A DNA stretch of 64,000 nucleotides from Streptomyces sp. NBC_00483 (lineage in GTDB: Bacteria > Actinomycetota > Actinomycetes > Streptomycetales > Streptomycetaceae): positions 7,874,001-7,938,000 of the forward strand of contig NZ_CP107880.1 in NCBI RefSeq assembly GCF_036013745.1, given 5' to 3'. The stretch's first letter is position 1; each line of letters opens with the position of its first letter. Positions 7,313 to 24,744 of this stretch are shown piece after piece. A model generated the notes under the pieces. The model had not been told where the DNA came from and did not search any database. It was given only the letters and a program-made list of their open reading frames with translations. Made by a program: the position numbers and the translations under genes.

Positions 7313-7325
7313 GTTTGGAGTGGAG

Positions 7326-8033
7326 ATGGTCAACCCAGTGGCGCACCAGGAGCTCACCCCCGCCGAGCGGGCGCGGACGATCCTCGCCGCGGCCGACACC
7401 TTGACCCTGACCCTGACCACCACGACCGAGGCCCGGATTCGGCTGGACTGCGTGGGGCTCTACGCCGTGGACGCCGCGTCCCGGCTCATCCTGCTCGACC
7501 CCGCGGACCCCCGGCTGACCGCGGCGCTCGCCACGGCGCCGCACTCGGGCCTCGCCGCGTACGCCGAGTTCACGGACGTGGCCCCCGTCGTCGTACGCGA
7601 CCGGGTGCGGGCCCGCCTCGCCTTCAGCGGGCGCCTCGGGGGTGCGGGTCCCGACACCCTGGTGTTCCGTCCCGCGCGGGCCGCCTTCGCCGAGGACGAC
7701 TCCGTGCGCGTCCTGGACGTGACGGAACTCGCCGCGGCGGCGCCCGACCCGCTGGCCGGGGTCGAGGCGGAACTGCTCTCGCACCTGGACACGGGCCACG
7801 CGGACCTGCTCGTCCAACTCGCGGAAATGGCCGGGGATCTGGACCTGTCCGAGGTGGCGGACATCCGGCCCGTACGCCTCGACCGCAGGGGTCTCGTCCT
7901 GCGCCTCGAACGCGCCGCCGAGGAGTACGAGGACGTCCGCATCACCTTCCACACCCCCGCGATCGGCCCCCACGAAGTGGGCCACCGCATCCAGGAACTC
8001 CTCGACGTCGCGGCCGCCCGCGCGCACCGCTGA
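7326..8033 (+). CDS. DUF2470 domain protein, iron-regulated
   Basis: Protein of 235 residues. The ATG at 7326 is chosen over the in-frame GTG at 7320 because GGAG lies 5 bp upstream. The N-terminal half (to about residue 140) is a split-barrel-like region (LDCVGLYAVD, LAFSGRLGGAG); the C-terminal part (FSMxxHL-like LLSHLDTGHADLLVQLAEMAG, then a LDRRGLVLRLE strand) is DUF2470, a domain otherwise found at the end of haem-utilisation HugZ-type proteins. It lies directly under an iron box and 11 bp before a siderophore-interacting protein gene, so an iron or haem role is likely. Its exact reaction is not known. Confidence 0.85.
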   Translation: MVNPVAHQELTPAERARTILAAADTLTLTLTTTTEARIRLDCVGLYAVDAASRLILLDPADPRLTAALATAPHSGLAAYAEFTDVAPVVVRDRVRARLAFSGRLGGAGPDTLVFRPARAAFAEDDSVRVLDVTELAAAAPDPLAGVEAELLSHLDTGHADLLVQLAEMAGDLDLSEVADIRPVRLDRRGLVLRLERAAEEYEDVRITFHTPAIGPHEVGHRIQELLDVAAARAHR

Positions 8034-8044
8034 ACGGAGGCGCC

Positions 8045-8881: not shown

Positions 8882-9039
8882 GCGCCTGCGTCTGCGCCAG
8901 GGGGGGGCGGGCTCGGCCGTTCGGACGAACAGTGCCCCATGCACGTCGAGTGGAACACCATGAACTCGCTGCTTTCCCCGAGCGACTACGGGAACGCGGC
9001 GTACAAGCGGTCCGGTGCCGGGGGCGTGAGCACGCGGCA

Positions 9040-9063
9040 GCCGCCGGACGGGGCCCCGGCGGC
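9040..9063. terminator. Hairpin between convergent genes
   Basis: GCCGCCGG and CCGGCGGC pair over an 8-base loop, 160 bp after the siderophore-interacting protein stop and 11 bp after (in transcription direction) the stop of the convergent transporter. A bidirectional G+C-rich terminator without a U-tract is likely. No gene was seen in the rest of 8882-9073. Confidence 0.6.
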
Positions 9064-9073
9064 TGAACCGCTC

Positions 9074-10348: not shown

Positions 10349-10531
10349 GATCTCGACGCTATCCCCGGAAAAACCCAGCTCACACATGGTTTGACGGAGT
10401 CGAAACATTCCCGTCAACCAGGACGTGCCGGCGCGGCCGACCGGCTGCGCCGTTTGGTGCGGCCGGAGATCGCGAACACAATCACGGGCGCTGAGTCAGC
10501 AAAAGGTCAGCGAGAGCCCGAGGTCAGTACA

Positions 10532-11689
10532 TTGCCATCCATCCCCAAGCAGCTCGCCCGCGGCATGGGCACCTTCGCCAAGCCGTGCAGCTGCAGCCAG
10601 CCCACCCGTTGCCCGCACCCTTACTTCATCCGCTACCGCGACGCGGCCGGCAAGCAGCGGGAGGAGTCAGGCTTCCGAACCCAGGACGCCGCCAAGGAGC
10701 GGCTCGTCGAGCTGTACGCGCGGAAGTCCAGCACTCCCGCGTCCAAGGCCGAGCTCATCCGCCACTACGGGCAGATGCGGTTCGAGGAGTTCATCGGCGA
10801 CTACATGGGCCGACAGCGACGCCTGGCGTACGGCACGGCGTACGAGTACGAGCACCTCGCGAGGAACCACCTGATCCCGGAACTCGGATCACGGCGTGTG
10901 GAGACCTTCAGCCCGATGGTGGTCGAGAACTTCCTCACGACGATGGACCGCCTCGGGACACCCGACCCCACGCAGTTCAAGGTCTACGTCCTCCTCAAGA
11001 CGCTCCTGCTCGACGCCCACCGCAAGGGCGCGATCGGCGAGCACCCTCTGCAGGATGTAGACGCGCCGCAGTACGAGGCCGAGCGGGCCATCGTGCCCAC
11101 CAAGGAACAGATCGCGGGGATCAAGACGGCTGCGAACCACGACCGCTTCTCGATGTTCGTGGACATGATGGTCGGCTGCGGTCTGCGCAATGGAGAGGCG
11201 TTGGCCCTGAACGTGAACAACATCGTGGCTGACGACGTCTACCGCGTATCGGAGCAGGTCCACTACCGGACGAAGCAGATAGAGAAGCTCAAGCACAGGA
11301 AACCGGGGGAGTTTCGCGAGGTCCCGCTACCTCGGAGCATCCGTGAAGCGATTGAGCGCTTCGTCGACAAGCACGGAACCACCGCAGACGGCTACGTGCT
11401 GCAAGGGACCCGTGCCAAGCACATGAACCACAGCACGATCAATTACATCTGGTACCGGAAGCTGCCCGGCAAGGACGTGGACATGCCGGAGGGCATGTCC
11501 ATCTACGGGTACCGGCACTTCTTCGCGGCGAACTGCCTGGCGAACAACATCCCCATCACGGATGTCGCCGAGTGGATGGGGCACAAGAGCATCGAGGTCA
11601 CGTTCCGGATCTACCGGCATCTCATGCCGGCTTCGATCGGTCGGGCGGCGAGGCTCCTCGATCGAGGGCTTCACGACCTCGCTGCCTGA
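10532..11689 (+). CDS. Tyrosine recombinase (integrase)
   Basis: Site-specific recombinase of 385 residues. The TTG start at 10532 has GAGG 8 bp upstream and gives the start PSIPKQLARGMGTF, typical of Streptomyces integrative-element integrases. An N-terminal zinc-ribbon-like CSCSQPTRCPHPY (19-31) precedes the SAM-like core-binding domain (about 85-165). Catalytic residues visible are Arg219 (GCGLRNGEAL), Arg328, His351 (GHKS) and the nucleophile Tyr361 (FRIYRHL). The usual His of the HxxR box is Tyr325 (YGYRH). An excisionase-like gene follows in convergent orientation, but no replication, transfer or second attachment site was found, so this looks like a remnant or a very small element. Confidence 0.92.
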   Translation: MPSIPKQLARGMGTFAKPCSCSQPTRCPHPYFIRYRDAAGKQREESGFRTQDAAKERLVELYARKSSTPASKAELIRHYGQMRFEEFIGDYMGRQRRLAYGTAYEYEHLARNHLIPELGSRRVETFSPMVVENFLTTMDRLGTPDPTQFKVYVLLKTLLLDAHRKGAIGEHPLQDVDAPQYEAERAIVPTKEQIAGIKTAANHDRFSMFVDMMVGCGLRNGEALALNVNNIVADDVYRVSEQVHYRTKQIEKLKHRKPGEFREVPLPRSIREAIERFVDKHGTTADGYVLQGTRAKHMNHSTINYIWYRKLPGKDVDMPEGMSIYGYRHFFAANCLANNIPITDVAEWMGHKSIEVTFRIYRHLMPASIGRAARLLDRGLHDLAA

Positions 11690-11760
11690 GGGTGGCTCGG
11701 TAACCGACGCGCGGAACAGCGGTGGCTCCGGTAGCGCGAAGTTTCGGAGTCAGCGCTGCA

Positions 11761-11946
11761 TCAGCCCAGACGTTGCTGCCGGGCCCATGCGTCTACATCG
11801 GAGACCTTGTACTGCAACTTCGCGTTCCGTCCGGTACCGAACTTGTAGGCGGCCAGGCCAAGCCGAGGAGCGTCCCGGTAGACCCACGTGACGGACATGT
11901 TGAGGTACTCGGAGGTCTGCTTGGCATCCATGAACTGCGGGGGCAT
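11761..11946 (-). CDS. Excisionase-like helix-turn-helix protein
   Basis: Small DNA-binding protein of 61 residues. MDAKQTSEYLNMSVTWVYRD followed by a wing ending QYKVSDVDAWARQ is the winged-helix excisionase/AlpA fold (HTH_17), which bends DNA at attachment sites to set the direction of integrase. GGAGG lies 5 bp before the ATG. It converges on the integrase, with only 71 bp between the stops; in most Streptomyces elements xis precedes int on the same strand, so this arrangement is unusual and would uncouple their expression. Confidence 0.85.
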   Translation of the reverse strand: MPPQFMDAKQTSEYLNMSVTWVYRDAPRLGLAAYKFGTGRNAKLQYKVSDVDAWARQQRLG

Positions 11947-12283
11947 CGGACCTCCAGATCGGGCGTGGGAGATCAGTGTGGGAGCAAAGCGCGACTTGGC
12001 TGTGCCGGAAGCGATCTGATACCCGAGCTAGGAGTCACCCACGCAACCCGGAGCGAGATAATGATGCTCTTCGTCGACCCAAACCGTACGGGTTCGAAAG
12101 TGGCAGTTACTGACCTTTCCGGGGTGTTGTCGGGTGGTGGGTGAGGGGTTCGGATGTCCCGTACTCCGTCATTGCAGTGCAGGACCTCGTTGGTAGTAGC
12201 TCGGACTGGCCTGACGGCCCTCCGGGAGGGCGCCGCTGGCCGAGGTATACCGTCTGCCGCAGATATGAAGCCGGGGGGCATGA
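11947..12283. other. Intergenic region, no gene seen
   Basis: No convincing coding region. It contains direct repeat copy A (12103-12146), a short GGTTCGAA near 12090 that resembles a T-loop but has no tRNA fold around it, and a GGCCCTCCGGGAGGGC-type hairpin near 12217-12232 ahead of the lipoprotein gene. An attachment site could lie here but cannot be proved from one copy. Confidence 0.5.
12103..12146 (+). repeat. Direct repeat copy A flanking the lipoprotein gene
   Basis: This 44-bp stretch matches 12803-12845 at all but about six positions and one 1-bp gap. The conserved core is GGGGTGTTGTYGGGTGGTGGGT. Both copies point the same way and bracket a single small gene. Reading the opposite strand, both could encode THHPTTPRK near a C-terminus, so they may be ends of a lost transposable element. 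Confidence 0.75.
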
Positions 12284-12709
12284 ATGCAACATCGTTTGGC
12301 AGCCACGATCCTCCTCTGCCTCGCTACTGCCCTTGCCGCCGCATGCTCCCCGGAGCCCGAAGCAGAAGACGTCAACCGCTCCGACCTCGTGGGCCACTGG
12401 CATGCCGGCGGGGCCTGCGGCTCCTCTCTCGTGTTGGAGAAGAGCGGTTCGGCCCGATGGAAACACTGGGCGACGGGCTACAGCGTGAGTGAATCCCGCA
12501 TCACCGGCAGAGAGGACGGCCAGGGGAGCTGGACGCTGGAGACAGTGCACGGCGAGGAGTATTTCGAGGTGGAGACGGACAAAGCCCGTGAATCGTTGAC
12601 CATGGTGCAGGGGGATGACCGGTTGATCCTCCTACAGACCCCAGGAGGCGACCCGGACAACAGCATCGGGTGCCGTTTCAAGCAAGTCGATGACCGGAAG
12701 CACGACTGA
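12284..12709 (+). CDS. Small secreted lipoprotein of unknown function
   Basis: Protein of 141 residues. The first 21 residues form a lipoprotein signal (LLCLATALAAAC), with Cys at about 21, so it should be anchored outside the membrane. The mature part has LVGHWHAGGACGSSLVLEKSGSARW and later SWTLETVHGEEYFEVE, a pattern of beta-strands resembling lipocalin-like or DUF-type Streptomyces lipoproteins. GGGGGG lies 5 bp before the ATG. It is flanked by direct repeats and sits next to int/xis genes, which suggests it was acquired. I do not recognise a specific family. Confidence 0.75.
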   Translation: MQHRLAATILLCLATALAAACSPEPEAEDVNRSDLVGHWHAGGACGSSLVLEKSGSARWKHWATGYSVSESRITGREDGQGSWTLETVHGEEYFEVETDKARESLTMVQGDDRLILLQTPGGDPDNSIGCRFKQVDDRKHD

Positions 12710-13134
12710 CACACCCTCACCCACCCCGCGCTGCCTGGCTCGGTCTCTTCCCCGGACCGCTGTCATCCTTCTGCCCCTGTTGCCGCTCGAGCCGTGAGGC
12801 CTGCGGTTATTGACTTTTCGGGGTGTTGTTGGGTGGTGGGTAAGGCTGAAGCCGGTGCCGGCGAGGCAGTCATCGATAAGTTCAGGGTGACGTTGGATGC
12901 GACGTGGTCCGCTGCGCAGGACAGGAGGGCAGTTGCACGATGGTGAACCAGTCATGGTCCGCGGCGGACTGGCGCATTCCGGCGGCCCGATGAGTGTTGA
13001 GGTGCGCAGCTGTGAGCTGACGCTCGTCACATGCTGACCGATTGCCGACGCTACTGGCAGGGCGTCAGCCGAGGTGTGTCGGCGGGTGCGACGCTGTGTC
13101 GTCGTCCAAGCTCGGTGGCCTCGTCAGCGGGACG
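12710..13134. other. Intergenic region with possible transposase 3' remnant
   Basis: No intact gene. It contains direct repeat copy B. On the minus strand around 12815-12910 a frame reads RHPELIDDCLAGTG followed by LTHHPTTPRK, which has the look of a transposase C-terminus, but it has no start and no catalytic residues. The rest (12930-13134) shows only very short open frames. Confidence 0.4.
12803..12845 (+). repeat. Direct repeat copy B flanking the lipoprotein gene
   Basis: 43 bp, same orientation as copy A 700 bp upstream, differing at scattered positions. See copy A for the shared core. The divergence means the duplication is not very recent, or that the two are separate family members. 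Confidence 0.75.
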
Positions 13135-14223
13135 TCACAAGACCACGACGGACCTCAAGACGTCCCCTGTGTGCATCTTTTCGAAAGCCTTCTCGATGTC
13201 GTTGAGACCGATTTCCTCGGTGACGAACCGCTCCAGCGGAAGCCGTCCTTGTAGGTGCAGGTCCACCAGCACGGGGAAGTCCCGGGAGGGGAGGCAGTCG
13301 CCGTACCAGGACGATTTCAGGGCGCCGCCGCGGCCGAAGTACTCCACCAGCGGGATGTCGGGGGCCATCATCGTGGGTGTCGGTACCCCGACCAGGACGA
13401 CCGTACCGGCCAGGTCGCGTGCGAAGAACGCCTGTTTCCAGGTCTCCGGACGTCCGACGGCGTCGATGACCACGTCGGCGCCGAAGCCGTTGGTGATCTC
13501 GCGGATCCTCTCGACCGGGTCGGTTTCGCGCGCGTCGACGGTATGGGTGGCGCCCAACTCGGTAGCGGTCAGGAGCTTTTGTGGGTCGCGGTCGACGGCG
13601 ATGACGGTGGTGGCGCCGGCCAGCCGCGCTCCGGCCACGGCCGCGCTGCCAACTCCTCCGCATCCGATGACGGCGACACTGTCGCCACGACCGACGCCGC
13701 CGGTGTTGACGGCGGCACCGATGCCGGCCATCACGCCGCAGCCGAGCAGCCCGGCGACCTGCGGGCTGACGGCGGGGTCAACTTTTGTGCACTGGCCGGC
13801 AGCGACGAGAGTCTTTTCGGCGAAGGCCCCGATTCCCAGGGCGGGGGTGAGTTCCCTGCCGTCGGACAGAATCATCCGCTGGACGGCGTTGTGCGTGTCG
13901 AAGCAGTACTGCGGCTTGCCCTTGCGGCAGGCTCGGCAGGTTCCGCACACGGCACGCCAGTTGAGGATCACAAAGTCCCCAGCTGCGATGCCGGTGACGC
14001 CGTCGCCGACCGTTTCCACGAAGCCGGCGGCTTCGTGTCCCAGCAGGAAGGGGAAGTCGTCATTGATGCCCCCGTCCCGGTAGTGCAGGTCGGTGTGGCA
14101 GACACCGCATGCCTGCACCTTCACCACGGCTTCACCCGGTCCCGGCTCGGGGATCGTGATGGTTTCCAGTGAGACTGGACGGCCTGCGCCGAGCGCGACG
14201 ACGCCGAGAACGTTCTGAGACAT
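13135..14223 (-). CDS. mscR: S-(hydroxymethyl)mycothiol dehydrogenase
   Basis: Zinc-dependent class III-like alcohol dehydrogenase of 362 residues that oxidises the mycothiol adduct of formaldehyde with NAD+. Catalytic zinc ligands are Cys42 and His63 (GHEAAG with Glu64); structural zinc cysteines are at about 93, 96, 99 and 107 ([15 protein letters not shown]). The Rossmann motif [10 protein letters not shown] and the C-terminal [10 protein letters not shown] fit MscR. The ATG at 14223 has GAAAGG upstream. It follows an IPNS-like oxygenase by 70 bp on the same strand, so it is probably the last gene of the module at 13135-18626, where it could remove formaldehyde released by oxidative demethylation. 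Generic formaldehyde detoxification is the alternative. Confidence 0.88.
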
Positions 14224-14293
14224 GCGGGCCTTTCTGGGGCGGAGTGCCGTCACGCGGGATGGGCCGCTGCGGTGCCCGCGGTGAGGGGCGTAG

Positions 14294-15253
14294 TCAGTTG
14301 ACGGTGGCGGCCAGTGCGCGCTGGCGCATGTACTCCCCGGCTGTCACAGCGGGTTCGGCGGTGTCTCGGCCGATGGGCTCGATGAGGGTGCCGACGTTCG
14401 CGTCGCAGAACTGGATGAGGGAGATCAGCTCCTCCTGCGGCATGTCGGGCTGCGGGGGCAGCACGCGGTGGCGTGTGGAGCGCCAGCGGTCACCGGTCCA
14501 GCGGGCCATGAGGTCACCGATGTTGATGACGAGTGCTCCCTCGACGAAGGGAGCGTCGAACCAGGCTCCGTCGCTCTCGATCTGCAGCCCGCCGTAGCCG
14601 GGCTGCCGGTCCAGGAGGGTGAAGATGCCCCAGTCGGTGTGCGGGCCGACCCGGAACTGGCCCTCCTGCGCTGCGCCGGACTCCTGGAGGGACGGGTAGC
14701 GGTTGATGTTGAGAGTGCGGGTGCCCTGAGAGGTGCGCTCGATGAACCACTGCGCGTCCAGGCCGAGCGCGAGGGCGCAGATCTGTAGGAGGTCGTCGTA
14801 CACGTGGCACATCGCATCCATGAAGCGGAGGGCGTTGTGTTGGAGGTCCGGCACTTCCTTGGGCCACACGTTGGGGCGGAACCAGGTCGCGTCGACCTTG
14901 GCGTCGCCCGTGAGGTGGTCACGGCCGACGGTGTAGGTCTCCTTCATGTCCGGCCGGGAGACGTCCGCGTCCACGCCGAGGAAGGAGTTGGCCTCCTTTC
15001 CGGTGGGAATCCACCCGCGCCCGCCGACGGTCGTCGCGTAGCCGTTCTTTGCTTCGGTGGGCAGCGAGAAGAACTGCTTGGCGCTGCGCCGCAGTTCAGT
15101 GAACATCTCCGCGGGCACCTGGTGACCGCTCAGGAGGAGGAATCCCGACGTGCGCAGCGCGTGGTCCAGTTCCAGGGCGAGTTCCTTGCGGATGGCGTCG
15201 TCCCCGGTGCGCCACACACTGAGGTCGAGAAGGGGGATGTGGGGCTCGTTCAA
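14294..15253 (-). CDS. IPNS-like 2-oxoglutarate/Fe(II) oxygenase 1
   Basis: Non-haem iron oxygenase of 319 residues, isopenicillin-N-synthase/gibberellin-oxidase fold. The start is a TTG at 15253 with AAGGAG 6 bp upstream; the overlapping ATG leads straight to a stop. The N-terminal cap domain (IPLLDLSVW to [10 protein letters not shown]) is followed by the double-stranded beta-helix with iron ligands His205, Asp207 (PHTDWG) and His262 (STRHRV). The Arg of the usual R-x-S co-substrate motif seems to be Leu276 (LIS), while the second oxygenase at 16105 keeps RRS. It is the fourth gene of a run permease-oxygenase-hydrolase-oxygenase-mscR. Substrate unknown; a nucleobase or N-methylated purine is inferred from the permease. 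Confidence 0.88.
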
Positions 15254-15352
15254 GACATGCTCCTTGTCAGTGGTGTGCGGCCGACGGACGTGCGGGGGCG
15301 CGGCTGTTGCCGCTCGTGTGAGGGGCGCGGCGGCAAGTGGTCCCTCGGCGGC

Positions 15353-16108
15353 TCAGGTTGTCCGCGTCGCGCCGGACACAACGGTGCAGAAGGAGGCGAG
15401 AGCCTCGGCGAGCGGGCCCGCCGCCGACAGTTGCGGGGCGTGGTCGCAGTCGAGGGAGACCACCGCCGTGTTCGGCGTCAGGTACTGCATGTGACGCTGA
15501 GCGGCGAGCGGGATGGAGCGGTCCTGCCGCGCCTCGACGTAGAGGCGGGGTAGTCGTCCGTAGCGTTCGGGGGTCCACGTGGGAGTGATGAGACGGGCCG
15601 TCTCCATCTGTGGAACCATCCGCCGTGCCGCCGCGATCGCGGCGGCGGGTGGCGCCTGAGGGAAGAAGACCGCCGCAGCCGCCTCCGGGGAAACGATGCT
15701 GTGCCGGCCGTCGGGTGTCAGCGTCAGATGGGTGCCAATGCCGACGTCGGAGGGAAGGCCTGCTTCGGCGCAGACTTCGGTGAAGGGCCGGTCGGACGGG
15801 AGCATGATCCCGGCGACGTGCACGACACCGACGACCCGGTGGGATATCTCCTCCGCGACCTGGGTGGCGACGACGCTGCCTCCCGAATGGCCGACCAGGA
15901 TCAACGGCTTTTCCAGGTGGTCCACTTGGCTGATCACGGCCCGGGTGAGGGTGTCCAGCGTGACGTTCTCCGGCTGCCCGAGGCCGGTGCCGGGCAGGGC
16001 CACGGCGTGGGGGGTGTGGCCGGCGGCTGCCAGAGGTTCGGTGATCGTGTCCCATACCCAGGGGCCTGCCCACGCTCCATGGATGAGTACGACATGGGCG
16101 CCGCTCAC
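15353..16108 (-). CDS. Alpha/beta hydrolase
   Basis: Cytoplasmic hydrolase of 251 residues. VLIHGAWAGPWVW (7-19) is the oxyanion-hole region and GHSGGS holds the nucleophile Ser75; the catalytic His is probably His223 in DCDHAPQLS. The overall pattern (HGAW near the start, short cap) is like EstC/methylesterase-type enzymes that cut small esters or amides. The GTG start at 16108 overlaps the stop of the second oxygenase as GTGA, so the two proteins are made together and probably act in one pathway. The substrate is unknown; it might open or trim the oxygenase product. Confidence 0.85.
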   Translation of the reverse strand: MSGAHVVLIHGAWAGPWVWDTITEPLAAAGHTPHAVALPGTGLGQPENVTLDTLTRAVISQVDHLEKPLILVGHSGGSVVATQVAEEISHRVVGVVHVAGIMLPSDRPFTEVCAEAGLPSDVGIGTHLTLTPDGRHSIVSPEAAAAVFFPQAPPAAAIAAARRMVPQMETARLITPTWTPERYGRLPRLYVEARQDRSIPLAAQRHMQYLTPNTAVVSLDCDHAPQLSAAGPLAEALASFCTVVSGATRTT

Positions 16109-17178
16109 GCCGTGGCGCTTTCCGCGGCCGCCAGCACGCGAGCCGCTTCGCGGACGGCCGTGGTGTTGGCCTTGCCCTGCCGGGAACCGGCGAGCTTGGC
16201 CTTGATGTGGTCCCGGATGATGACGGGCTCGTAGGCCAGGCCGTTGTCGGCGTCGAGGTGGCTGGGCAGCGTGGAGATGACGGCGTCGACGTTGCCGTCG
16301 TGGAAGAACGCGACCGAGCGGCGGCGCTTGATGGTGCCGTCGATGACCGGCGGCTTGACGCGGTGCAGAGTGGACATCCAGCGGTCGTTGGTCAGACGGG
16401 CTGTCAGATCACCGAGGTTGACCAGCAGGGCTCCGTCGGTGGGCTGTACGTCGTGCCATGCGCCGTCGCTGCCCAGAACCTGCAGACCGGGGACCTGGTC
16501 GGCCCACAGGACGGTGAGGATGCCGAAGTCGGTGTGCTCGCCCATGCCGGTCAGGTCGCCGTCGAGGGTGACGGTGCCTTCCGGCAGTGCGTAGTTGTTC
16601 ATGCGCAGGACGTCGACCGAGTGATCGGTGAGGTACTCGAAGAAGTCGCCGGGCAGGTCCAGTGCGTCGGCGAGGACGGTGGTGAGTGTGCGGGCCACTC
16701 GGCCCGCCTCGCCGTAATAGGACTCGACCTGGTCCCGGAAGGCTTCGATGCTGGGCCAGACGTTGGTGCCGTAGTCCTCCTCGGAGAGGTCGAGGAGCGG
16801 GAACGACCGGGCTTCCGTACCGACGTTGAACGCTTCGAAGAAGTCGTTCATGCGACTGGCCGACTCCACCCCCAGGCTCAGGCTCAGCGACTCGCTCTTG
16901 GGTGGGCTGTACCCGCGGTTGGCGCCCTCCACCCGGTATTCCTTCTTGGCGGCCAGGGACAGGGAGAAGAAGGAATCGACCGCGTCGGTCAGGCCGTCGA
17001 GAGTGTCCTCGGGAATGCCGTGGCCGAGGACCTGCACGAATCCGACTGTGGCACAGGCGGCGTCTATCTGCCGGCTGACCTCGGCCTTCTCCTCTGGGGT
17101 ACCGCCGAGGACGTAGGCGCTGATGTCGACGACCGGCACGGTGAAGGCACCAGCGTTGTCAGCGGTGTGCTGCGACAT
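16105..17178 (-). CDS. IPNS-like 2-oxoglutarate/Fe(II) oxygenase 2
   Basis: Oxygenase of 357 residues. The ATG at 17178 has AGGAGA upstream; the frame is open far beyond but that part is antisense to other genes. PVVDIS and LGHGIP mark the cap domain; iron ligands are His215, Asp217 (EHTDFG) and His272 (STLHRV), and the 2-oxoglutarate-binding R-x-S is intact at 286-288 (RRSVAFF). It is more canonical than its neighbour at 14294. The same fold includes fungal thymine 7-hydroxylase and several oxidative demethylases. It lies 65 bp after the NCS2 permease stop and overlaps the hydrolase start, so one operon is likely. Confidence 0.9.
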   Translation of the reverse strand: MSQHTADNAGAFTVPVVDISAYVLGGTPEEKAEVSRQIDAACATVGFVQVLGHGIPEDTLDGLTDAVDSFFSLSLAAKKEYRVEGANRGYSPPKSESLSLSLGVESASRMNDFFEAFNVGTEARSFPLLDLSEEDYGTNVWPSIEAFRDQVESYYGEAGRVARTLTTVLADALDLPGDFFEYLTDHSVDVLRMNNYALPEGTVTLDGDLTGMGEHTDFGILTVLWADQVPGLQVLGSDGAWHDVQPTDGALLVNLGDLTARLTNDRWMSTLHRVKPPVIDGTIKRRRSVAFFHDGNVDAVISTLPSHLDADNGLAYEPVIIRDHIKAKLAGSRQGKANTTAVREAARVLAAAESATA

Positions 17179-17243
17179 GGGGTCTCCTGTCGAAAGGGGG
17201 CGGGAGGAAATCCGAGGGCGATCGGAGTCGAGTCCGATGGCTG

Positions 17244-18626
17244 TCAGAGGGGAGTGGGTTCCGGAGAGGCTGCGGTGCTGAAGGCGCGGCGGGCGTTGGC
17301 GCCGAGGCGCGTGTGGTTGAGCAGCAGGTTGAGTGCGAAGGCCACGATGGCGGTGAGCGTGATACCGCTTCCGAGGATGATCTGCGCGGAGTCCGGGAAC
17401 CTGGCGAACATCCCCGGTACCAGGGTCGGCAGCAGACCCACGCCGACCGATGCGGCGGCGATGGTCATGTTGATTGAGTCGGACAGATCGACCTTGCGCA
17501 GGGTGTCGATGCCGACGACCGCTACGACGGAGAACATGATCAGCCCCACACCCCCGACGACGGGCTGGGGAAGGCCCGAGACGAGGGCTCCCAGTTTGGG
17601 CATGAGGCCGAGCACGATGAGGATGCCGCCGCTGACGGCGGTGACGTACCGGCTGTGGACCCGAGTGGTGGCGACGGCGCCGACGTTGTTGGTGTAGACG
17701 GTGTCGACAAAGGAGTTGAAGACGGCGCCGACGATTCCGGAGAGGCTGTCGCCGGTCAGACCGCGGGCGAGATTGGCCCGGTTGACGGGCTTGCCCGTGA
17801 TCTCGCCGAGCGCGAGCATGCTGGCGGTCGATTCGGCGAACACCACGATCATGACGATGCTCATCGCGACAACTGCCGTCAGGGGAAACTGCGGTGCGCC
17901 GAAATGGAAGGGCTCGGGGACACCGAACCAGGCGGTGCGTGCGAGGGATCCCAGGTCGTACAGGCCGAGCGGCAATGAGATCACCGTGCCCACCAACAAG
18001 GCGATGAGCACGCCCAGTTGACGCCAAAGGTTCCTGCCCAGGCACAGCAGGGCTATGGCCACGAGCATGACCACGGCGGCGAGTCCCAGGTTGGCGGGCG
18101 CGCCGAAGCTGTCGGATGTGGGGTCCTGGCCCACGATGAGCCCGCCTGCCACCCCGATCAGGGACAGGCCCACGACGGTGAGCACGGAACCGGTGACCAG
18201 TGCCGGGAAGAAGCGCAGCAGTCGGGCGAAGGCCCAGGCCAGGGGGATGCCGATCAAGCCGCCGACCAGCATTGATCCGTAGACGGCGGGCATGCCGTAT
18301 TGTCCGGCGATCAGGATCATCGGTGAAAGTGCCGCGAAGGAGCCGCCGCAGACGACCGGCAGTCGTACTCCGACGGCCTTGCCGAGGCCGAGGCTCTGGA
18401 CCAGCGTGATGAGGCCGGAGATCAAGAGGTCGGCGCAGATGAGCATTGCGGTCGTGTCGGCGTCGAGGCCTACGGCGGCGCCGAAGACCAGCGGCACGCT
18501 GACACATCCGGTGTACATGATGAGGACGTGCTGGAGGCCGAAGGCCAGGAGCCGCGGCGCGGGAAGGTGGCTGTCGACGGCCGAAGGCGGGATGCGGGGC
18601 TCCACTGGGGAGCGGGGCTCTGGCAT
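17244..18626 (-). CDS. NCS2 nucleobase permease (uracil/xanthine type)
   Basis: Proton-coupled nucleobase transporter of 460 residues with about 14 membrane segments. The QH motif of the first helix is at 32-33 (FGLQHVLIMY), the acidic residue of helix 8 is in FAESTAS (about 265), and the NCS2 signature N-x-G-x4-T-R is at about 313-322 (NNVGAVATTR). The family imports uracil, xanthine, urate and related bases. It is the first gene of the module 13135-18626, which suggests that the downstream oxygenases act on an imported base or modified base. The start at 18626 (MPEPRSPVEP) lacks a strong ribosome site. A divergent XRE-cupin regulator begins 103 bp upstream. Confidence 0.9.
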   Translation of the reverse strand: MPEPRSPVEPRIPPSAVDSHLPAPRLLAFGLQHVLIMYTGCVSVPLVFGAAVGLDADTTAMLICADLLISGLITLVQSLGLGKAVGVRLPVVCGGSFAALSPMILIAGQYGMPAVYGSMLVGGLIGIPLAWAFARLLRFFPALVTGSVLTVVGLSLIGVAGGLIVGQDPTSDSFGAPANLGLAAVVMLVAIALLCLGRNLWRQLGVLIALLVGTVISLPLGLYDLGSLARTAWFGVPEPFHFGAPQFPLTAVVAMSIVMIVVFAESTASMLALGEITGKPVNRANLARGLTGDSLSGIVGAVFNSFVDTVYTNNVGAVATTRVHSRYVTAVSGGILIVLGLMPKLGALVSGLPQPVVGGVGLIMFSVVAVVGIDTLRKVDLSDSINMTIAAASVGVGLLPTLVPGMFARFPDSAQIILGSGITLTAIVAFALNLLLNHTRLGANARRAFSTAASPEPTPL

Positions 18627-18639
18627 GCCGATATTCTTG

Positions 18640-18653
18640 GAAGTAATTATTTC
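18640..18653. promoter_or_regulatory. AT-rich palindrome, possible regulator site
   Basis: GAAGTAATTATTTC is a palindrome with one mismatched pair in an unusually AT-rich patch between the NCS2 permease and the divergent XRE-cupin regulator. It sits just upstream of the permease start. A binding site for the regulator at 18730 is a reasonable guess only. Confidence 0.4.
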
Positions 18654-18729
18654 TTTCTGTGGGTAATGTTGTGACGATGGTGTTACGGGCGTTCCCCAGG
18701 CAGTGACATCGCCTTGATAGCGTCCGGCC

Positions 18730-19293
18730 ATGGAGGACGAAGAACACCAGGACCTCGCGCGATCCATCGGAGCGTCCATTCGTGCGGCCAGGCGGGAAGC
18801 CCAGCTCACGCTGACGCAGCTGGCCAAGGAAGCGGGCGTGTCCCAGCCCTTCCTGAGCCAGGCCGAGAACGGCAAACTGATGCCGAGTGTCATCAACCTC
18901 CACCGGATCGCGCAGGCTCTCAACACGACGGCCCACGAGATCCTCGAGCGCGGTGCTCGCCCGGCCGTCAGGGTTGTGCGGGCGACGGAAGGGCGCTCCT
19001 ACCCGCTCGGGCCGGATGCCACTGTCCGTTTCTGCGTCGGACGCAACCGCCTCATGGACTGCAACGAGGTGATGGCCGGCCCCCACAGTGCCGCGGAATC
19101 GGCTACCACTCACCAGGGCGAGGAATTCGTCTACGTGATCGACGGAAGCATCCGCATGGTCATCGGGGAGAGCGAACACCTGCTGGGCGCAGGCGACACG
19201 GTCTACTACGCCGCCACCGTGCCCCACCAATGGTTCAACGACTCCGACACCCCGGCCAGGTTCTTGTTCACCAGCTCCCCGCCCGGTTTCTGA
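18730..19293 (+). CDS. XRE-family regulator with C-terminal cupin domain
   Basis: Transcription factor of 187 residues. Residues 12-66 form a Cro/C1-type helix-turn-helix (LTLTQLAKEAGVSQPFLSQAENGK). Residues about 98-185 form a small cupin (TTHQGEEFVYVIDGS, LLGAGDTVYYAATVPHQW) that senses a small ligand; His at HQGEE and HQW would be the metal or ligand positions. Members of this family (PuuR-, SutR-like) usually control the adjacent catabolic genes. It is divergent from the NCS2-oxygenase-hydrolase operon with 103 bp between starts, so autoregulation and operon control from that gap are likely. Confidence 0.9.
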   Translation: MEDEEHQDLARSIGASIRAARREAQLTLTQLAKEAGVSQPFLSQAENGKLMPSVINLHRIAQALNTTAHEILERGARPAVRVVRATEGRSYPLGPDATVRFCVGRNRLMDCNEVMAGPHSAAESATTHQGEEFVYVIDGSIRMVIGESEHLLGAGDTVYYAATVPHQWFNDSDTPARFLFTSSPPGF

Positions 19294-19409: not shown

Positions 19410-20771
19410 TCAGCCGACCTCGAATGCACCGAGGTCGGGTGCTTCGCCCTTGTACGGCAGTCCGACGTCGCTGCCCTGGTCGATCAGGTCGCTCGTCGCC
19501 GCAGGGCGCAGGTTCGGCAGAGACGGGAGGCTGCCGTCCGACTGCCGGGGGGCGTCCCACCCGGTGCTCGACGTGCTCTGGAACTGTCCGTCGGACAGCG
19601 GTGTACCGAGGTCCCAAGTGTTGTGGGCCGAGTCGGTGCCGGTCAGGTTCGAGGTCAGGGTGCCGCCGTAGGCGATGTTGTTGCGGAGTTTGCCCAGACC
19701 GGTGGACTCGCCGCTGGGCGAGACGCCGAGCATGTTGAAGTCGGGGTGGTTGTTGAATCCGGTGTTGTTGAAGAAGTCGTTCGCCACGGTGTGGTGGTTC
19801 GCGTAGAAGCCCGCTGCCCCGTTGTTGAAGGCGACGGACTGACGCACGGTGTGCTTGACCCCGTAGTCGACGTAGTCGCCGCCGTAGCCGCCAGCCTTGA
19901 AGCCGTTGCCGTCCCCGGCCCGTGTGTTGGTTCCCGGGACGTATCCGCTGGACCATGCCCACGACGACTCGATGGTCACCGAGGAGCGGGCGTTGATGAG
20001 GTCGAAACCGTCGTCGGAGTTGTTCCAGGCCCGGTTTCCCCGGAAGACGTTGCCGGGATTGTCCGCGGGGATGTGTGCGCCGAAGCCGTCGGCGTTGGTG
20101 CCTGCGCCGCTGGAGCTCTTCGCGTCGTAGTTGTCGTGCGAGTCCGTGTTGAGGACGAGGTTGTGGCCGCCGTCCTGCAGGAACAGGCCCGGTCCCGTGA
20201 TGTCGTGGATGTCGAGGTTCTCGTAGGTGTTGTTGCTTCCGGAGCTCCAGACGCCCCAGGACTCGTGGTTGAGGATGTTGTTCTGCGGAACCCCGGCTAT
20301 TTCCAGGCCCTTGAGGTGGATCCAGCTGCCGGTGACGTCGAAGCCCTTGATACGGCAGTCGTCGGTCATGTCAGAGAAGTCGAAGACCGGCTTCTCTCCT
20401 GGGTAGGCCCAGTAGCGGATCGGGCTCCCCGAGGCGCCGCTCTTGTTCAGCGTGACGGCATCGACCCGGGCTGTCTGGCTCGAACAAGTCGTGTTCGCGT
20501 GGGTGTACTTGTACGTGCCGCTGCGGAAGTAGACGGTGTCGCCCGGTTCGGCGACTTCCTGGGCATGCGCGAGCGAGGCCCAGGGGGCGTCCTTCGTGCC
20601 GGTTGCGCTGTCGCTGCCGCTTGGTGCGACGTAGTACACGCCGCCGGCCAGCGCATGCGGGTCGCCAGTGGTTGTCTCGCTCGCGGCTGCCGAGTTGGTG
20701 ACGACAGCGAGGACGCTCATGATTGCGACCGAGCCCAACAGAGCTTTCGTCGTGCGCTTTGACGTTGTCAT
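19410..20771 (-). CDS. PL9 pectate lyase (right-handed parallel beta-helix)
   Basis: Secreted lyase of 453 residues; residues 1-30 are a Sec signal (SVLAVVTNSAAA). VYYVAPSGSDSATGTKDAPW opens a parallel beta-helix. The PL9 active site is recognisable: calcium-site aspartates at about 210, 253, 254 and 257 (NSDDGFD), spaced as in Erwinia Pel9A, and the catalytic base Lys292 in GNGFKAGG. It cleaves polygalacturonate, or the galacturonate-rhamnose backbone of RG-I, by beta-elimination outside the cell. GGAG lies 7 bp before the ATG. It is the last gene of the long minus-strand run, 77 bp after the CE12 esterase. Confidence 0.92.
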   Translation of the reverse strand: MTTSKRTTKALLGSVAIMSVLAVVTNSAAASETTTGDPHALAGGVYYVAPSGSDSATGTKDAPWASLAHAQEVAEPGDTVYFRSGTYKYTHANTTCSSQTARVDAVTLNKSGASGSPIRYWAYPGEKPVFDFSDMTDDCRIKGFDVTGSWIHLKGLEIAGVPQNNILNHESWGVWSSGSNNTYENLDIHDITGPGLFLQDGGHNLVLNTDSHDNYDAKSSSGAGTNADGFGAHIPADNPGNVFRGNRAWNNSDDGFDLINARSSVTIESSWAWSSGYVPGTNTRAGDGNGFKAGGYGGDYVDYGVKHTVRQSVAFNNGAAGFYANHHTVANDFFNNTGFNNHPDFNMLGVSPSGESTGLGKLRNNIAYGGTLTSNLTGTDSAHNTWDLGTPLSDGQFQSTSSTGWDAPRQSDGSLPSLPNLRPAATSDLIDQGSDVGLPYKGEAPDLGAFEVG

Positions 20772-20848
20772 TCGCTTACTCCGAATTGTCTGGTTGTACA
20801 GGTGAGTTGGGGGTTGATGACTCAGGACATGTCAGGGGCCGCCCTGGG

Positions 20849-21952
20849 TCACCGCTCGTCTGTCTTCTGTGGTGCGTTGAGGGATCGCGCCGCCGGCAGG
20901 TGCGCCCGGGCGATCTCACGTGCCACGAGACCGGCCACGGTGGTGGCGCCCGAGGTGTTGAAGTGGGTCTGGCTGCGACCTGCGGGAAGTTCGGCGTACA
21001 ACTGCCAGGAGGCGTCCGGGCCGAGCTGTTCCATGAGTGCCGTGCTGTCGGCCGTCAGGTCCAGCAGCGGTACGTCCTGCTGCTGCGCGACATCGCGCAT
21101 GACCGCAGGTAGATCCACACCGAGGCTGTTGACGATCCGCCCGGTGTCAGTGATCTTCCCGTTGGCGTCGTACAGATGCCGCACCGGCGGGGTGACCAGG
21201 ACGGGTCGGCCGCCCCTGGAGCGGACACCATCGAGGAGGCTGAGGAGATTGGCACGGTAGGTGTCTTCGGCGGTGGTCTTGTCGTTGTGCGCGAGCTGGA
21301 TGAGCACCGTGTCGCCCCGATGGATCCGGGGCTTGAGTGCCTCGAACAGCGCGGGGTTCTGCAGCCACGAGACGGTACTGGATCCGGCGGCAGCCCAGTT
21401 GGCGACAGCGAGGCCCGGGCCGAAGTACTGCGGCAGCTCCTGTGCCCAACCCCGCTGGACAGTGTTCAGCCAGTCACTAGCCGTCGAGTCGCTGACCACG
21501 AAGAGCCGTGGTGCGTGCGGCCGGGGAGTCACCCGCAGGTCGGTGAGTGCGGGCGCCGAACCGGTGAGCTTGAGCTGCAGGCCCGCGGTGCCATCGCCCT
21601 CCTGCCCGTCGGGCATGCTTTCGGGGGTGCGTACGTCGACGGTGACGGACCGTGCGGCAGTGTGGCCGGCCCGCGTGGTCACCGGGGCGAGCACGGTCCG
21701 GTTCGCTTCGACCTCTAGCCCGGTGTTCGCGGCGGCGGTGCGACTGCCCAACGTGACGCGCACGTCGTAGGCCCCCGGAGGGACGTCGAACGAGCAGGTC
21801 AGACCAGTGCTTTCGGTGCTTTGTGTGCAGTTCCGGCGTATCTGGTCACTGAGTAGTGGGGCACCGGCGGTCGCGACAGCGGTACCTGGCACCGTGACTG
21901 CGGCGACCGTGGTGACGGTCAGCGCGCCCAGCAGGCGGCTGAATCTCTTCAT
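20849..21952 (-). CDS. CE12-type rhamnogalacturonan acetylesterase 1
   Basis: Secreted SGNH-fold esterase of 367 residues with a Sec signal (1-29) and AGGAG before the ATG at 21952. Residues about 35-145 form a beta-sandwich module (CSFDVPPGAYDVRVTLG) that often precedes CE12 domains. The catalytic domain shows VSDSTASDW (nucleophile Ser156, SDS in place of GDS), NWAAAGSST and QLAHNDKT. The C-terminal block is SQTHFN: the His (about 330) is present, but the Asp of the D-x-x-H dyad appears to be Ser327. The paralogue at 40486 keeps DNTH. It would remove acetyl groups from RG-I ahead of the lyases, unless the missing Asp impairs it. Confidence 0.87.
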   Translation of the reverse strand: MKRFSRLLGALTVTTVAAVTVPGTAVATAGAPLLSDQIRRNCTQSTESTGLTCSFDVPPGAYDVRVTLGSRTAAANTGLEVEANRTVLAPVTTRAGHTAARSVTVDVRTPESMPDGQEGDGTAGLQLKLTGSAPALTDLRVTPRPHAPRLFVVSDSTASDWLNTVQRGWAQELPQYFGPGLAVANWAAAGSSTVSWLQNPALFEALKPRIHRGDTVLIQLAHNDKTTAEDTYRANLLSLLDGVRSRGGRPVLVTPPVRHLYDANGKITDTGRIVNSLGVDLPAVMRDVAQQQDVPLLDLTADSTALMEQLGPDASWQLYAELPAGRSQTHFNTSGATTVAGLVAREIARAHLPAARSLNAPQKTDER

Positions 21953-22014
21953 GAGCACTCCTGTTGAAGGGATGGGGCGAGAGACAGGTGGCGTGGAGAT
22001 GGGCCGATGGGCGG

Positions 22015-24744
22015 TCACGGGGCCTGGTCCGGGGCGACGGCGAGGAGCGCGATGATCGCCAGGTTGTTCTGGGCGACATCGTTGGTGCTGAAGCTGGTCC
22101 GGGGCATCTCGTCGACCTTGCTGAACACCGCGGACCCGTCGACGTGCACAGGTTCGGGCCAGCTCTCGTCCCCGCCGTTCTTGAGGAAGGCATCCCAACC
22201 GCGCTGCTGCACGGCCGGTTCCTTGGTCTGCTCGCCGGCCCACGCCGTCATCCGGGAGTAGAAGACTCCGGGGGCACTGGTACTGAACTTGAAGCCGAAA
22301 TGGTCGGTGATCTCGGAGGTCGGTGCCTGCACGTAGCGGCAGAACTCGACCAGCTTCGCCCGGAATTCGGGTACGTCGATCAGGTCGGTGGTCTCCCACA
22401 TGATCTGCTCGCCGCAGAAGACCATCGACAGGTTCACCTTGCCCCAGTCGCCGCCGAGCTTGAGGTCGCTGATGTGGCCGGTGGCCGGGTCGTAGCCGAC
22501 GGCGCCCCCTTGCTGCCCGGTGAAGAGTCCGGCCGGGAGCTTGGCGATGTCCCGCATGCCGGTGACGATGCGGTCGCGCCACTTGCTGTCGCCGGTGCGC
22601 TCCCATTCGGTGAGCCAGTTGCTCACGAGCGCGTACCAGTCGGGGCCGAGCCGAATCACGGTCGGGACACCTGCGGGGGCGTCGAGGTAGTCGCGCAGCG
22701 GCGGGTACTTCAGCAGGGTCGAGTCCAGCTGCAGCGGTACGCGCATGGCGTCGCCGATGAACTCGTCCGCGGTCAGGTAGTACATGAAGCGCTTGGTGTA
22801 GGCCTCGGAGACGCGGGGTTCCTTGCCGCCGTCGGCGTAGTGCTGCACGTCGTGGCGCGAACCGAGCCCGGCGAACGGCCCGGCGTGGATGGTGTCCGTC
22901 TCGGTCACGTGCCGGGTCATCGCCCGGGCGAGGTGGAACGTCTGCGGGTCTCCTGTGCGCAGGAACTGGTACCAGAGCGCCGCGTCCGAACCGAGTTCCG
23001 CGTTGTCCCAGGCGTAGCCGCCGACGTCGTAGCGCCAGGTGTGCCGGTCACTGTCGTAGGTGTGCATGATGTCGCCGTAGTCCCAGAACCCGTACCAGTG
23101 GCGCTGCTTGACCTGCTCGGTGTAGAAGTCGACGCTGCCGGCGATCGAGTCCTCGAGCTGCTTGCGGGCCGGGGTGCTGCGGTCGGGAAGGCTCCACCGG
23201 CCGAACACCTTGACGCCGTGGTAGGTCTTCGGGTCGGCGACCAACTGGGGGCGGGCGAGGGTGGAAGCGAGGGTGGCCACATCGCCCCGGGAGGGCGTGG
23301 CGTCCAGCGCCCACAGCTGCATGTCCGTGGAACGGGCCATGCCGGTGGACACTCCGAAGCCGTAACGCTCGTCCTCGTAGGCCAGGTCGAGGCCGTGGCT
23401 GGACGCGTCGTAGGAACGCAGGTCCATCGCCTCGGCGTGCGGCGACCAGGACCACAGGGTGACCGTCGCCGTGTCCTTGGTGGCGTCACGGACGTCCAGG
23501 GCGCGCGGAAACTGCTGCCAGAAGTCCCGCAGACCGACCCCAAGACCGCCGCTGACCCCGCCGACGTACCCGATCCCGGGTGCACGGTCGGCGAAGCCGG
23601 CGTGCTTGAGCCAGGCAGCCTTGTGCGAGGTGCGCTTCCACACCGCGCACTGCGTGGCTGAGTGCTGGATCAGGCTGAAGTCCCCCCACTGCGGAAGGTC
23701 CTTCCAACCGCCCTGAACGGTGGACTCCCATTCCGACACCGGCGGTGTCGCGGTGCCGGCGATCTGGGCCGACCGCACTGCTTCACCTGGGTCGCGGCGC
23801 AGCCCCGTCAGTCCGACGACCGCCTCGCCCCACACACCCTTGTCGGGGCCGGCGAAGCGGATGTGCCGGTTGTAGGGCTGGTCACTCATCGGTACGGACA
23901 GTTGCAGGCCCAGCCCTCGGATGAAGTCGCTCGACGCCTTGCCGTCCCAGACGAACTGGTGCATCACCCGCAGCGACTCGTCCCCGGCACCCAGGTACAC
24001 GCGCATCGTCCAGGGGAGGATCGCCCGGTTGCCCTTCCCGTGACGCGAGGACGAGTCCTGCCGGTACCTGCCGGTCAGCTTTACCACGGCACGCACCGGT
24101 CCGGACTGCTCGATCTCGGCCTTCTCGACGACGCCGCTCCACGCGGTGTGTCGGGGGCTCGCCGTGTCCTCGGGCTCGTCCTGCAGCATCAGTATCAAGC
24201 GGCCGTCGTGCGCGATGGTCCTGCTGCCGCGGGCTATCGAGCGGATCGCCACGGGGCCGCTGCGCGCGATGCGGATGTCCACGACGCCGTTGGCCAGCCG
24301 GATCTCGTCCCCACTGCGCTTCGCCGTCACCGGCTGCTTCGGGGCTGATGGCTTTCCCGGGGCCAGGTGGAAACCGTCGGCGAGGGCGGAGGAAGCCACG
24401 GCGTGGCCGGTCCACTTCAGCGTCCCGTCCGGCCAGTACGCCAGGGGCCAGGACTGCACCGGCACCTGGTCGTTGTCGTGGTCCTGCAGCGCGAACGTCG
24501 TGTCGGCTGCGACCTTGCCCTCGGGCCAGGGGACGCCCCAGGCGGTGCCGGTGGTGGCGGCGGGCCGGCCGTCCAGCCAGTGCAGGTCCACCCCCTGAGC
24601 CGTATCGCTCGACGATGCGGCCGTTGCGGCACGGGGGCCACCGGCAGCGGCTGCCCGGCCACCGGGGCCGAGGGCGAGGGCGGCCGCGGCGATCGATGCG
24701 CCGCTGAGGAACGTGCGTCGGTTGAGGGGGGATCCCTCGGACAT
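22015..24744 (-). CDS. Exo-rhamnogalacturonan lyase, PcRGLX/YetA-like, copy 1
   Basis: Tat-exported protein of 909 residues (NRRTFLSGAS at 8-17, Ala-rich signal to about 45). The order is an N-terminal beta-rich RIFT-barrel-like domain opening with LHWLDG and WGVPWPEG, a central beta-sandwich (RVYLGAGDESLRVMHQFVWDG, RHIRFAGPDKGVWGEAV) and a C-terminal alpha/alpha toroid (WYGFWDYGDIMHTYD, GGYAWDNAELG). This is the architecture of the Penicillium exo-RG lyase PcRGLX (PL26) and Bacillus YetA, which release unsaturated galacturonyl-rhamnose from RG-I chain ends. GGAGG precedes the ATG. It lies between DUF2264 and CE12 genes in the same operon. A full-length paralogue is encoded at 34066. Confidence 0.88.
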   Translation of the reverse strand: MSEGSPLNRRTFLSGASIAAAALALGPGGRAAAAGGPRAATAASSSDTAQGVDLHWLDGRPAATTGTAWGVPWPEGKVAADTTFALQDHDNDQVPVQSWPLAYWPDGTLKWTGHAVASSALADGFHLAPGKPSAPKQPVTAKRSGDEIRLANGVVDIRIARSGPVAIRSIARGSRTIAHDGRLILMLQDEPEDTASPRHTAWSGVVEKAEIEQSGPVRAVVKLTGRYRQDSSSRHGKGNRAILPWTMRVYLGAGDESLRVMHQFVWDGKASSDFIRGLGLQLSVPMSDQPYNRHIRFAGPDKGVWGEAVVGLTGLRRDPGEAVRSAQIAGTATPPVSEWESTVQGGWKDLPQWGDFSLIQHSATQCAVWKRTSHKAAWLKHAGFADRAPGIGYVGGVSGGLGVGLRDFWQQFPRALDVRDATKDTATVTLWSWSPHAEAMDLRSYDASSHGLDLAYEDERYGFGVSTGMARSTDMQLWALDATPSRGDVATLASTLARPQLVADPKTYHGVKVFGRWSLPDRSTPARKQLEDSIAGSVDFYTEQVKQRHWYGFWDYGDIMHTYDSDRHTWRYDVGGYAWDNAELGSDAALWYQFLRTGDPQTFHLARAMTRHVTETDTIHAGPFAGLGSRHDVQHYADGGKEPRVSEAYTKRFMYYLTADEFIGDAMRVPLQLDSTLLKYPPLRDYLDAPAGVPTVIRLGPDWYALVSNWLTEWERTGDSKWRDRIVTGMRDIAKLPAGLFTGQQGGAVGYDPATGHISDLKLGGDWGKVNLSMVFCGEQIMWETTDLIDVPEFRAKLVEFCRYVQAPTSEITDHFGFKFSTSAPGVFYSRMTAWAGEQTKEPAVQQRGWDAFLKNGGDESWPEPVHVDGSAVFSKVDEMPRTSFSTNDVAQNNLAIIALLAVAPDQAP

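Follow-up and report, generated by a model that had tools for sequence, protein, structure and literature searches.

What is the substrate of a bacterial operon that combines a nucleobase permease, two enzymes of the isopenicillin N synthase (IPNS) type, a hydrolase and a mycothiol-dependent formaldehyde dehydrogenase? Such an operon lies in a 64,000-nucleotide stretch of the Streptomyces sp. NBC_00483 genome (contig NZ_CP107880.1, positions 7,874,001 to 7,938,000; hereafter the window), which is a single contig of 10.24 Mb. Five minus-strand genes run from 18626 down to 13135 in the order ncs2, oxyA, abh, oxyB and mscR, and the gene of an XRE-cupin regulator starts divergently at 18730. The predicted proteins and the gene neighbourhoods of their relatives point to a purine or nucleobase role, which we regard as probable. 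The complete reading that we tentatively favour, an inducible operon for the catabolism of an N-methylated purine with methylxanthine as the first guess, falls a little short of an even chance when all its details are taken together.

Gene content and layout of the operon

The features of the locus, in coordinates of the window, are as follows.

13135..14223, minus strand: mscR, S-(hydroxymethyl)mycothiol (formaldehyde) dehydrogenase, final gene of the operon (TIGR03451); the open frame extends to 14253
14294..15253, minus strand: oxyB, Fe(II) enzyme of the IPNS/thymine-7-hydroxylase (T7H) fold, lacking both 2-oxoglutarate (2OG) arginines
15353..16108, minus strand: abh, alpha/beta hydrolase of the hydroxynitrile lyase/methylesterase type (PF12697, Abhydrolase_6)
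16105..17178, minus strand: oxyA, Fe(II)/2OG oxygenase with a T7H-like nucleobase site (DIOX_N and 2OG-FeII_Oxy)
17244..18626, minus strand: ncs2, nucleobase:cation symporter of the xanthine-permease (PbuX) subfamily (PF00860, TIGR03173)
18631..18655, minus strand: conserved element AAGAAATAATTACTTCCAAGAATAT within the divergent promoter, a probable operator for the XRE-cupin regulator (motif search, 13 loci)
18730..19293, plus strand: XRE-family regulator with a C-terminal cupin domain, divergent from the operon (PF01381 and PF07883)

All six genes lie where the original prediction had placed them, as was confirmed by their reading frames and Pfam/NCBIfam families; both oxygenases carry DIOX_N and 2OG-FeII_Oxy domains, and the regulator carries HTH and Cupin_2 domains. 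XanA-type xanthine hydroxylases belong to the TauD family; no TauD-family domain was found in either oxygenase, in which only DIOX_N and 2OG-FeII_Oxy matched at E 0.001. The probable true starts are the ATG codons at 14223 for mscR, 17178 for oxyA and 18626 for ncs2, and the first two agree with the lengths of database relatives (362 and 357 amino acids, respectively). The predicted GTGA overlap was also found at 16105-16108, where the stop of oxyA and the start of abh share 4 bases, and mscR begins 70 bases after oxyB on the same strand.

OxyA keeps main active-site residues of thymine-7-hydroxylase

Active-site residues were counted, in T7H numbering, in the 120 best OxyA matches and the 120 best OxyB matches, the proteins of the window included. 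The roles of these residues are taken from work on T7H (PMC4787775). OxyA keeps the iron, 2OG and main base-stacking residues of T7H: N87, Y194, R286, S288, F292 and the HxD...H iron triad were present in 120/120 sequences and R190 in 119/120, and position 217 was F or Y. N87 is not a general property of the fold, since three other PDB relatives carry another residue at this position. Among solved structures, T7H scored highest with the OxyA family profile (145.6 bits, ahead of 143.9 for the next), and it came first by structure when the Foldseek matches of the OxyA model (mean pLDDT 81.7) were re-examined, with 3oox 1.0 lower. These results bear out the T7H-like oxygenase of the original prediction. 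Neurospora T7H (PDB 5c3p-5c3s) is 28-32% identical to the two oxygenases of the window; OxyA differs from it at E122 and N294, and OxyB lacks R190, R286 and N87.

The OxyA family is large, with 2577 database proteins matching at E<=0.001, distant members included, with scoring limited to the 7999 candidates that had the most words in common. Streptomyces accounts for several of the closest named relatives. The genome itself carries a second OxyA, 78% identical and far off, with no other module genes recognised nearby. In a tree of the oxygenases, a starred branch set apart each of three groups: OxyA, OxyB and the riboswitch-linked dioxygenases described below. The nodes uniting OxyA with OxyB and T7H with the riboswitch-linked group, like the split from the outgroup, carried no star and had long branches, and therefore no deep conclusion was drawn from this tree.

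OxyB has lost the arginines that bind 2-oxoglutarate

The HxD...H iron triad of OxyB was intact in 120/120 sequences. R190 was replaced by N in 119 and by D in one, and R286 by L in 119 and by I in one. The latter position is that of the RxS-motif arginine binding the C5-carboxylate of 2OG, and it was not arginine in any of the 120. A separate MAFFT alignment gave the same two changes in 16/16 OxyB rows, four of which are paralogues from the genus with 45-49% identity (L095, L145, L146 and L148). Moreover, no lysine or arginine lies between the HRV motif and the serine in the OxyB of the window, which together with the replaced arginines leaves no plain 2OG site. OxyB may thus not use 2OG. The original prediction had named two 2OG/Fe(II) oxygenases: both proteins do belong to the superfamily and OxyA has the full 2OG site, but OxyB is without the arginines, and labelling both enzymes 2OG dependent is, on their sequences, not secure.

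The best profile match of OxyB was an ancestral ethylene-forming enzyme (192.9 bits), with T7H second (182.4 bits). Among the re-examined Foldseek matches of the OxyB model (mean pLDDT 92.7), T7H came first by structure and TraH was tied with it (35.7 vs 35.1). At E<=0.001, 1999 database proteins matched OxyB, distant members included, and paralogues of the above level or better were present in 162/392 genus genomes at E 1e-60.

Several relatives of OxyB were noted on their own account. One is widespread (46-50% identity in most listed matches), and its copy in this genome (C1:5592887-5593837, L095) lies about 3 kb from an NCS1 permease gene. Another forms a row with a PucR-type purine regulator, a dCMP/cytidine-deaminase-type gene and an NCS1 permease in L144 (G474:C1, 5966-10365). 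Small VOC-fold proteins follow oxyB in L040 (12064-12507) and L126 (10253-10645), with relatives in 5/80 of the oxyA loci described next.

Purine genes lie near oxyA in some other genomes

The neighbourhoods of oxyA were read in the best 80 of 254 loci (64-81% identity) from one scan of named species genomes, with up to 10 kb on each side of oxyA; 20/80 loci were shorter than 20 kb. A nucleobase permease or purine enzyme was present in 34/80 loci, and a purine enzyme in 27/80, counting uricase, 5-hydroxyisourate hydrolase (HIUase), xanthine dehydrogenase (XDH), allantoicase, racemase and adenosine deaminase (ADA) types. For comparison, 16 loci centred on OxyB paralogues or MscR, L095, L138 and L144 included, gave a marker in 2/16, in both cases an NCS1 permease near an OxyB relative. 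Where found, the NCS2, uricase, HIUase, racemase and ADA genes all lay within 5 kb of oxyA, as did allantoicase in 8/9; allantoicase was present in 9/80 loci. The marker-positive loci span Rhodococcus, Gordonia, Nocardia, Dietzia and Mycobacterium.

In three Rhodococcus species, R. wratislaviensis, R. jostii and R. opacus, the core is enclosed by a purine cluster, which was read in L033, markers being found in the other two species. The order in L033 is NCS1 permease, Asp/Glu/hydantoin racemase, XRE, NCS2, OxyA, Abh, amidohydrolase, HIUase, uricase and XDH subunits, and the amidohydrolase is nearest to 8-oxoguanine deaminase, below the cut-off of that family. The Streptomyces genome itself has uricase and XDH-type genes, with 13 XDH-type domain matches. 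We also noted a DUF6986 protein in 11/80 oxyA loci (L015, L024, L025, L030, L032, L033, L036, L038, L039, L047 and L055), 9 of which have allantoicase.

Co-occurrence of the five families, for which the original prediction had proposed a search, was found in part: ncs2 was found in 23/80 oxyA loci (at least 50% identity, on the oxyA strand in all 23), abh in 29/80 (at least 40%) and oxyB in 5/80 (at least 40%), and mscR in none. The XRE gene (at least 45%) was present in 15/80, each time on the opposite strand from oxyA. In all 29 abh loci, abh lies just downstream of oxyA on the same strand, and in 21/29 the oxyA stop and abh start share 4 bases as in the window. This coupling occurs in Rhodococcus and Gordonia and also in Alphaproteobacteria (Mesorhizobium, Kaistia), in which the oxyA-abh pair resembles a cassette of two genes. 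A looser gene-family grouping gave abh in 71 loci, possibly mixed with out-of-frame shadow reading frames, and was set aside for the stricter count. The PDB relatives of Abh are pyrethroid hydrolase, hydroxynitrile lyase and SABP2.

Gordonia sputi (L007) and a plasmid of Rhodococcus qingshengii (NZ_CP042916.1) have the arrangement xre-ncs2-oxyA-oxyB, without abh. The plasmid genes stand in the same order as those of the window, to which they are 62, 76, 77 and 67% identical, respectively; unlike the window, the stretch read there had no abh or mscR, and a VOC-family gene comes next. Two mycobacterial loci (L044, L046) have the order XRE (34-35% identity), NCS1 permease, oxyB, adenosine deaminase family gene and oxyA. 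The layout is beyond chance, since xre-ncs2-oxyA-abh and xre-ncs2-oxyA-oxyB both recur in other genera, and the operon of the window is the union of these recurring layouts plus mscR.

The permease and a conserved element in the divergent promoter

The NCS2 permease scored 429 bits on TIGR03173, the xanthine-permease subfamily (cut-off 414.15). Upstream of its gene, a motif search was conducted on 13 of 18 divergent promoter regions, L153, L026, L034, L036 and L039 being omitted as near copies. An AT-rich element was recovered with an information content of 27.4, compared with 14.5-15.6 in 12 shuffled sets, by a method that forces one site per sequence and was restarted 60 times on the real set and 15 times on each shuffled set. 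The element of the window, at 18631-18655, is the single occurrence in the genome at up to 3 mismatches. In loci where oxyA directly follows XRE (L006, L008 and L009), the element precedes oxyA. It is a probable operator of the XRE-cupin protein.

Related dioxygenases are linked to the xanthine riboswitch

The regulon of the xanthine (NMT1) riboswitch of Proteobacteria includes IPNS-like dioxygenases, whose function is described as unproved and which its authors predicted to act on purines (PMC7373994). We surveyed 297 genomes from the order to which one proteobacterial OxyA carrier belongs and found the riboswitch above the cut-off in 8 of them. An IPNS-like gene was found at a riboswitch copy in 8/8 loci, and these dioxygenases had N87, R190, Y194, R286, S288 and F292 in 8/8, identical to OxyA. 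One locus of the eight, L171 (G781:C6:337000-355000), carries at 5546-16365 two xanthine riboswitches, three IPNS-like oxygenases and an Abh relative; an oxygenase 33% identical to OxyA is followed there by this hydrolase, 47% identical to the Abh of the window. A dCMP/cytidine-deaminase-type gene, amidohydrolases and a flavodoxin-fold gene are also present. An Abh relative and an OxyA-like oxygenase thus accompany xanthine-sensing genes in a distant phylum, which is a second, independent purine link.

The riboswitch-associated (pcbC) dioxygenases share with the window their superfamily, the OxyA site residues, deaminase neighbours and, in 1/8, the adjacent abh family. They differ in being proteobacterial and only 27-32% identical to OxyA/OxyB, and the loci read have NMT1-type ABC transport genes in place of NCS2 and a riboswitch in place of an XRE-cupin regulator. 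No Rfam family, RF03054 included, matched the window at the gathering score. A riboswitch was considered as the control of the window and of seven proteobacterial oxyA loci, and discarded, as these loci gave no riboswitch match and RF03054 was without a match in those seven genomes.

MscR and the formaldehyde argument

In the original prediction, MscR was part of the five-gene set and removed formaldehyde released by oxidative demethylation. MscR scored 648.3 bits on the TIGR03451 equivalog (cut-off 512.9), which makes it by profile a true member of the S-(hydroxymethyl)mycothiol dehydrogenase family. Three close copies are encoded in the genome (100, 77 and 72% identity), that of the operon being an extra one. 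The copy in L149 is followed by a metallo-beta-lactamase-fold gene. The copy at C1:9716699-9717799 (L150:7718-12387) is directly followed by genes for a Rieske ring-hydroxylating oxygenase (nearest to GbcA, far below the cut-off), a ferredoxin-reductase-like protein and a GntR-type regulator; this set is likely another demethylation operon.

Linkage of mscR to the other genes was seen in the window only. At 45% identity or more it was found in 0/80 other oxyA loci, some of which have zinc dehydrogenases of 27-33%, and it was absent from the stretch read at the Rhodococcus qingshengii plasmid locus. None of the 120 mscR relatives listed lies on an 18,634-base contig that seemingly encodes an 81% identical OxyA (P0003) and a 69% identical OxyB (P0123). 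MscR was therefore rejected as a standard member of the module, an outcome that the original prediction had itself named as contrary, and the formaldehyde argument is weakened. The argument is kept alive by the extra MscR copy on the same strand, by the copy beside the Rieske oxygenase and by published demethylase clusters with formaldehyde genes: caffeine N-demethylase genes are flanked by frmA/frmB (PMC4408171), and vanA2B2 is adjoined by mycothiol-dependent formaldehyde genes (PMC9618137). Among the matches listed, the closest relatives of MscR (82-83%) were a metagenome protein and proteins of Saccharopolyspora, Amycolatopsis and Pseudonocardia, so mscR may have joined the operon through a separate transfer. 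A role of Abh as S-formylmycothiol hydrolase is unlikely, since abh accompanies oxyA where mscR is not near and the L149 copy of mscR has a metallo-beta-lactamase-fold neighbour instead.

A described system that is comparable is the caffeine N-demethylase cluster ndmABCDE of Pseudomonas putida CBB5 (PMC4408171), in which, as in the window, several oxygenases and a thiol-dependent formaldehyde dehydrogenase share one cluster. It consists of Rieske or Rieske-dependent oxygenases, a reductase and glutathione-dependent FrmA/FrmB, whereas neither oxygenase of the window is of the Rieske type and no reductase is among the five operon genes. No description of the present gene set was recognised among the open-licence PMC papers that literature searches listed.

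A possible pathway and its rivals

Under the reading of N-methylated purine catabolism, the XRE-cupin protein would bind the element at 18631-18655 and respond to the substrate, and the NCS2 permease would import the base. OxyA, with its T7H-like base pocket, would hydroxylate a ring methyl group; an N-hydroxymethyl group breaks off as formaldehyde, which MscR would oxidise as the mycothiol adduct. OxyB, with both of its 2OG arginines lost, might attack a second position, either with an unusual co-substrate or without one. Abh, whose gene is coupled to oxyA, may hydrolyse an intermediate that arises in the OxyA step, perhaps an N-formyl or ring-opened compound, and xanthine would drain through the XDH-type enzymes and uricase encoded in the genome. 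We put oxidative N-demethylation itself, which would also account for MscR and for the likeness to T7H, at an even chance. Of the pathway originally predicted, the nucleobase substrate, most likely a purine, is upheld by the neighbourhoods, the riboswitch link and the permease, but the formaldehyde link is not general. A bolder form is rather unlikely, in which OxyA and OxyB would carry out a Rieske-free actinobacterial N-methylpurine demethylation, the OxyB family working free of 2OG with electrons from the base or another co-substrate.

Several observations weigh against the N-methylated purine reading. The subfamily name of the NCS2 permease is no proof of its substrate, the T7H base contacts E122 and N294 are N and D, respectively, in 120/120 OxyA sequences, and both 2OG arginines are missing throughout the OxyB set (120/120). 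Plain N-demethylation gives Abh no evident role, and linkage of mscR was seen in 0/80 other oxyA loci. No marker was found in 46/80 oxyA loci, all 10 Microbacterium loci among them; XDH-type frames lay more than 5 kb from oxyA in 10/11 cases; and many of the positive loci come from close relatives (Rhodococcus, Gordonia), so that the counts overstate independent events. The module is not conserved in its own genus either: OxyA was found at E<=1e-140 in only 5/392 genus genomes, the present one included, the second copy of this genome and four other genus loci lack any purine marker (0/5 loci), and the genus locus of highest identity (81%) holds XRE-oxyA and an MFS symporter only. A further oxyA locus of the genus has an ADA-family gene after oxyA at 27% identity, below the threshold. 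Being so sparse, the operon of the window looks like a sporadic acquisition. One further related oxyA frame of the genus (G128:C2:590231-591265) contains one TGA and may be broken or misread.

The strongest rival, which we still consider unlikely, is a molybdenum-free hydroxylation of the purine ring, in which OxyA (and OxyB) would hydroxylate ring carbons, for example from hypoxanthine via xanthine to urate, and MscR would be an accidental or detoxifying neighbour. The riboswitch-linked dioxygenases that share the OxyA active site were predicted to act on purines (PMC7373994), fungal XanA shows that an oxygenase can replace XDH (PMC5746545), as Klebsiella HpxDE likewise does (PMC7373994), and deaminases of the ADA and dCMP/cytidine-deaminase types adjoin oxyA or oxyB. 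However, XDH-type genes occur within about 10 kb in 10/80 loci and give 13 domain matches in the genome itself, so that a substitute is unneeded; MscR is left unexplained; and the nearest structure, T7H, oxidises a methyl group. A further rival is a thymine or 5-methylcytosine route, with OxyA oxidising the C5 methyl group in the manner of T7H and MscR, a zinc alcohol dehydrogenase, perhaps taking the hydroxymethyl product. T7H is indeed the best profile and structural match, N87, R190, R286 and F292 are kept, and one OxyB relative stands with PucR, a deaminase and an NCS1 permease. The neighbours elsewhere, though, are purine rather than pyrimidine enzymes, the permease is of the xanthine subfamily and MscR scores as a mycothiol-formaldehyde equivalog, and we hold this route to be very improbable. 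A non-nucleobase substrate such as a plant hormone, an alkaloid or a pectin-derived compound, which is improbable, would fit the pectate-lyase and rhamnogalacturonan-lyase-like genes at 19410-24744, the resemblance of abh to plant methylesterases and hydroxynitrile lyases, and the other oxyA loci of the genus, where purine markers are missing (0/5). The permease and many neighbourhoods elsewhere are of the nucleobase type, however, and no pectin genes were among the ranked conserved families read at the 80 loci, for which annotation was not exhaustive.

Genes adjoining the operon

Pectin-type genes adjoin the operon at 19410-26901 and encode a PelN-like pectate lyase (below cut-off), a PcRGLX rhamnogalacturonan-lyase-like protein and a DUF2264 protein. 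On the other side, 1.4 kb past the operon end, an open frame at 8939-11689 has a phage-integrase domain in its final fifth. An MFS metabolite symporter gene (9074-10417) lies antisense to the first part of this frame, and relatives of the symporter (34-35%) are also found near oxyA in L006 and L153. With regard to a tRNA-linked insertion, no tRNA was found in the window.

Implications

If the reading of an N-methylated purine operon is true, large families annotated only as isopenicillin N synthase-like would gain a purine function, and the operon would bear, from another phylum, on the function of the IPNS-like dioxygenases under the xanthine riboswitch. Methylxanthine breakdown, for which Rieske and C-8 routes are known, would gain an iron/2OG route, and OxyB would offer a test of non-2OG chemistry within this fold.

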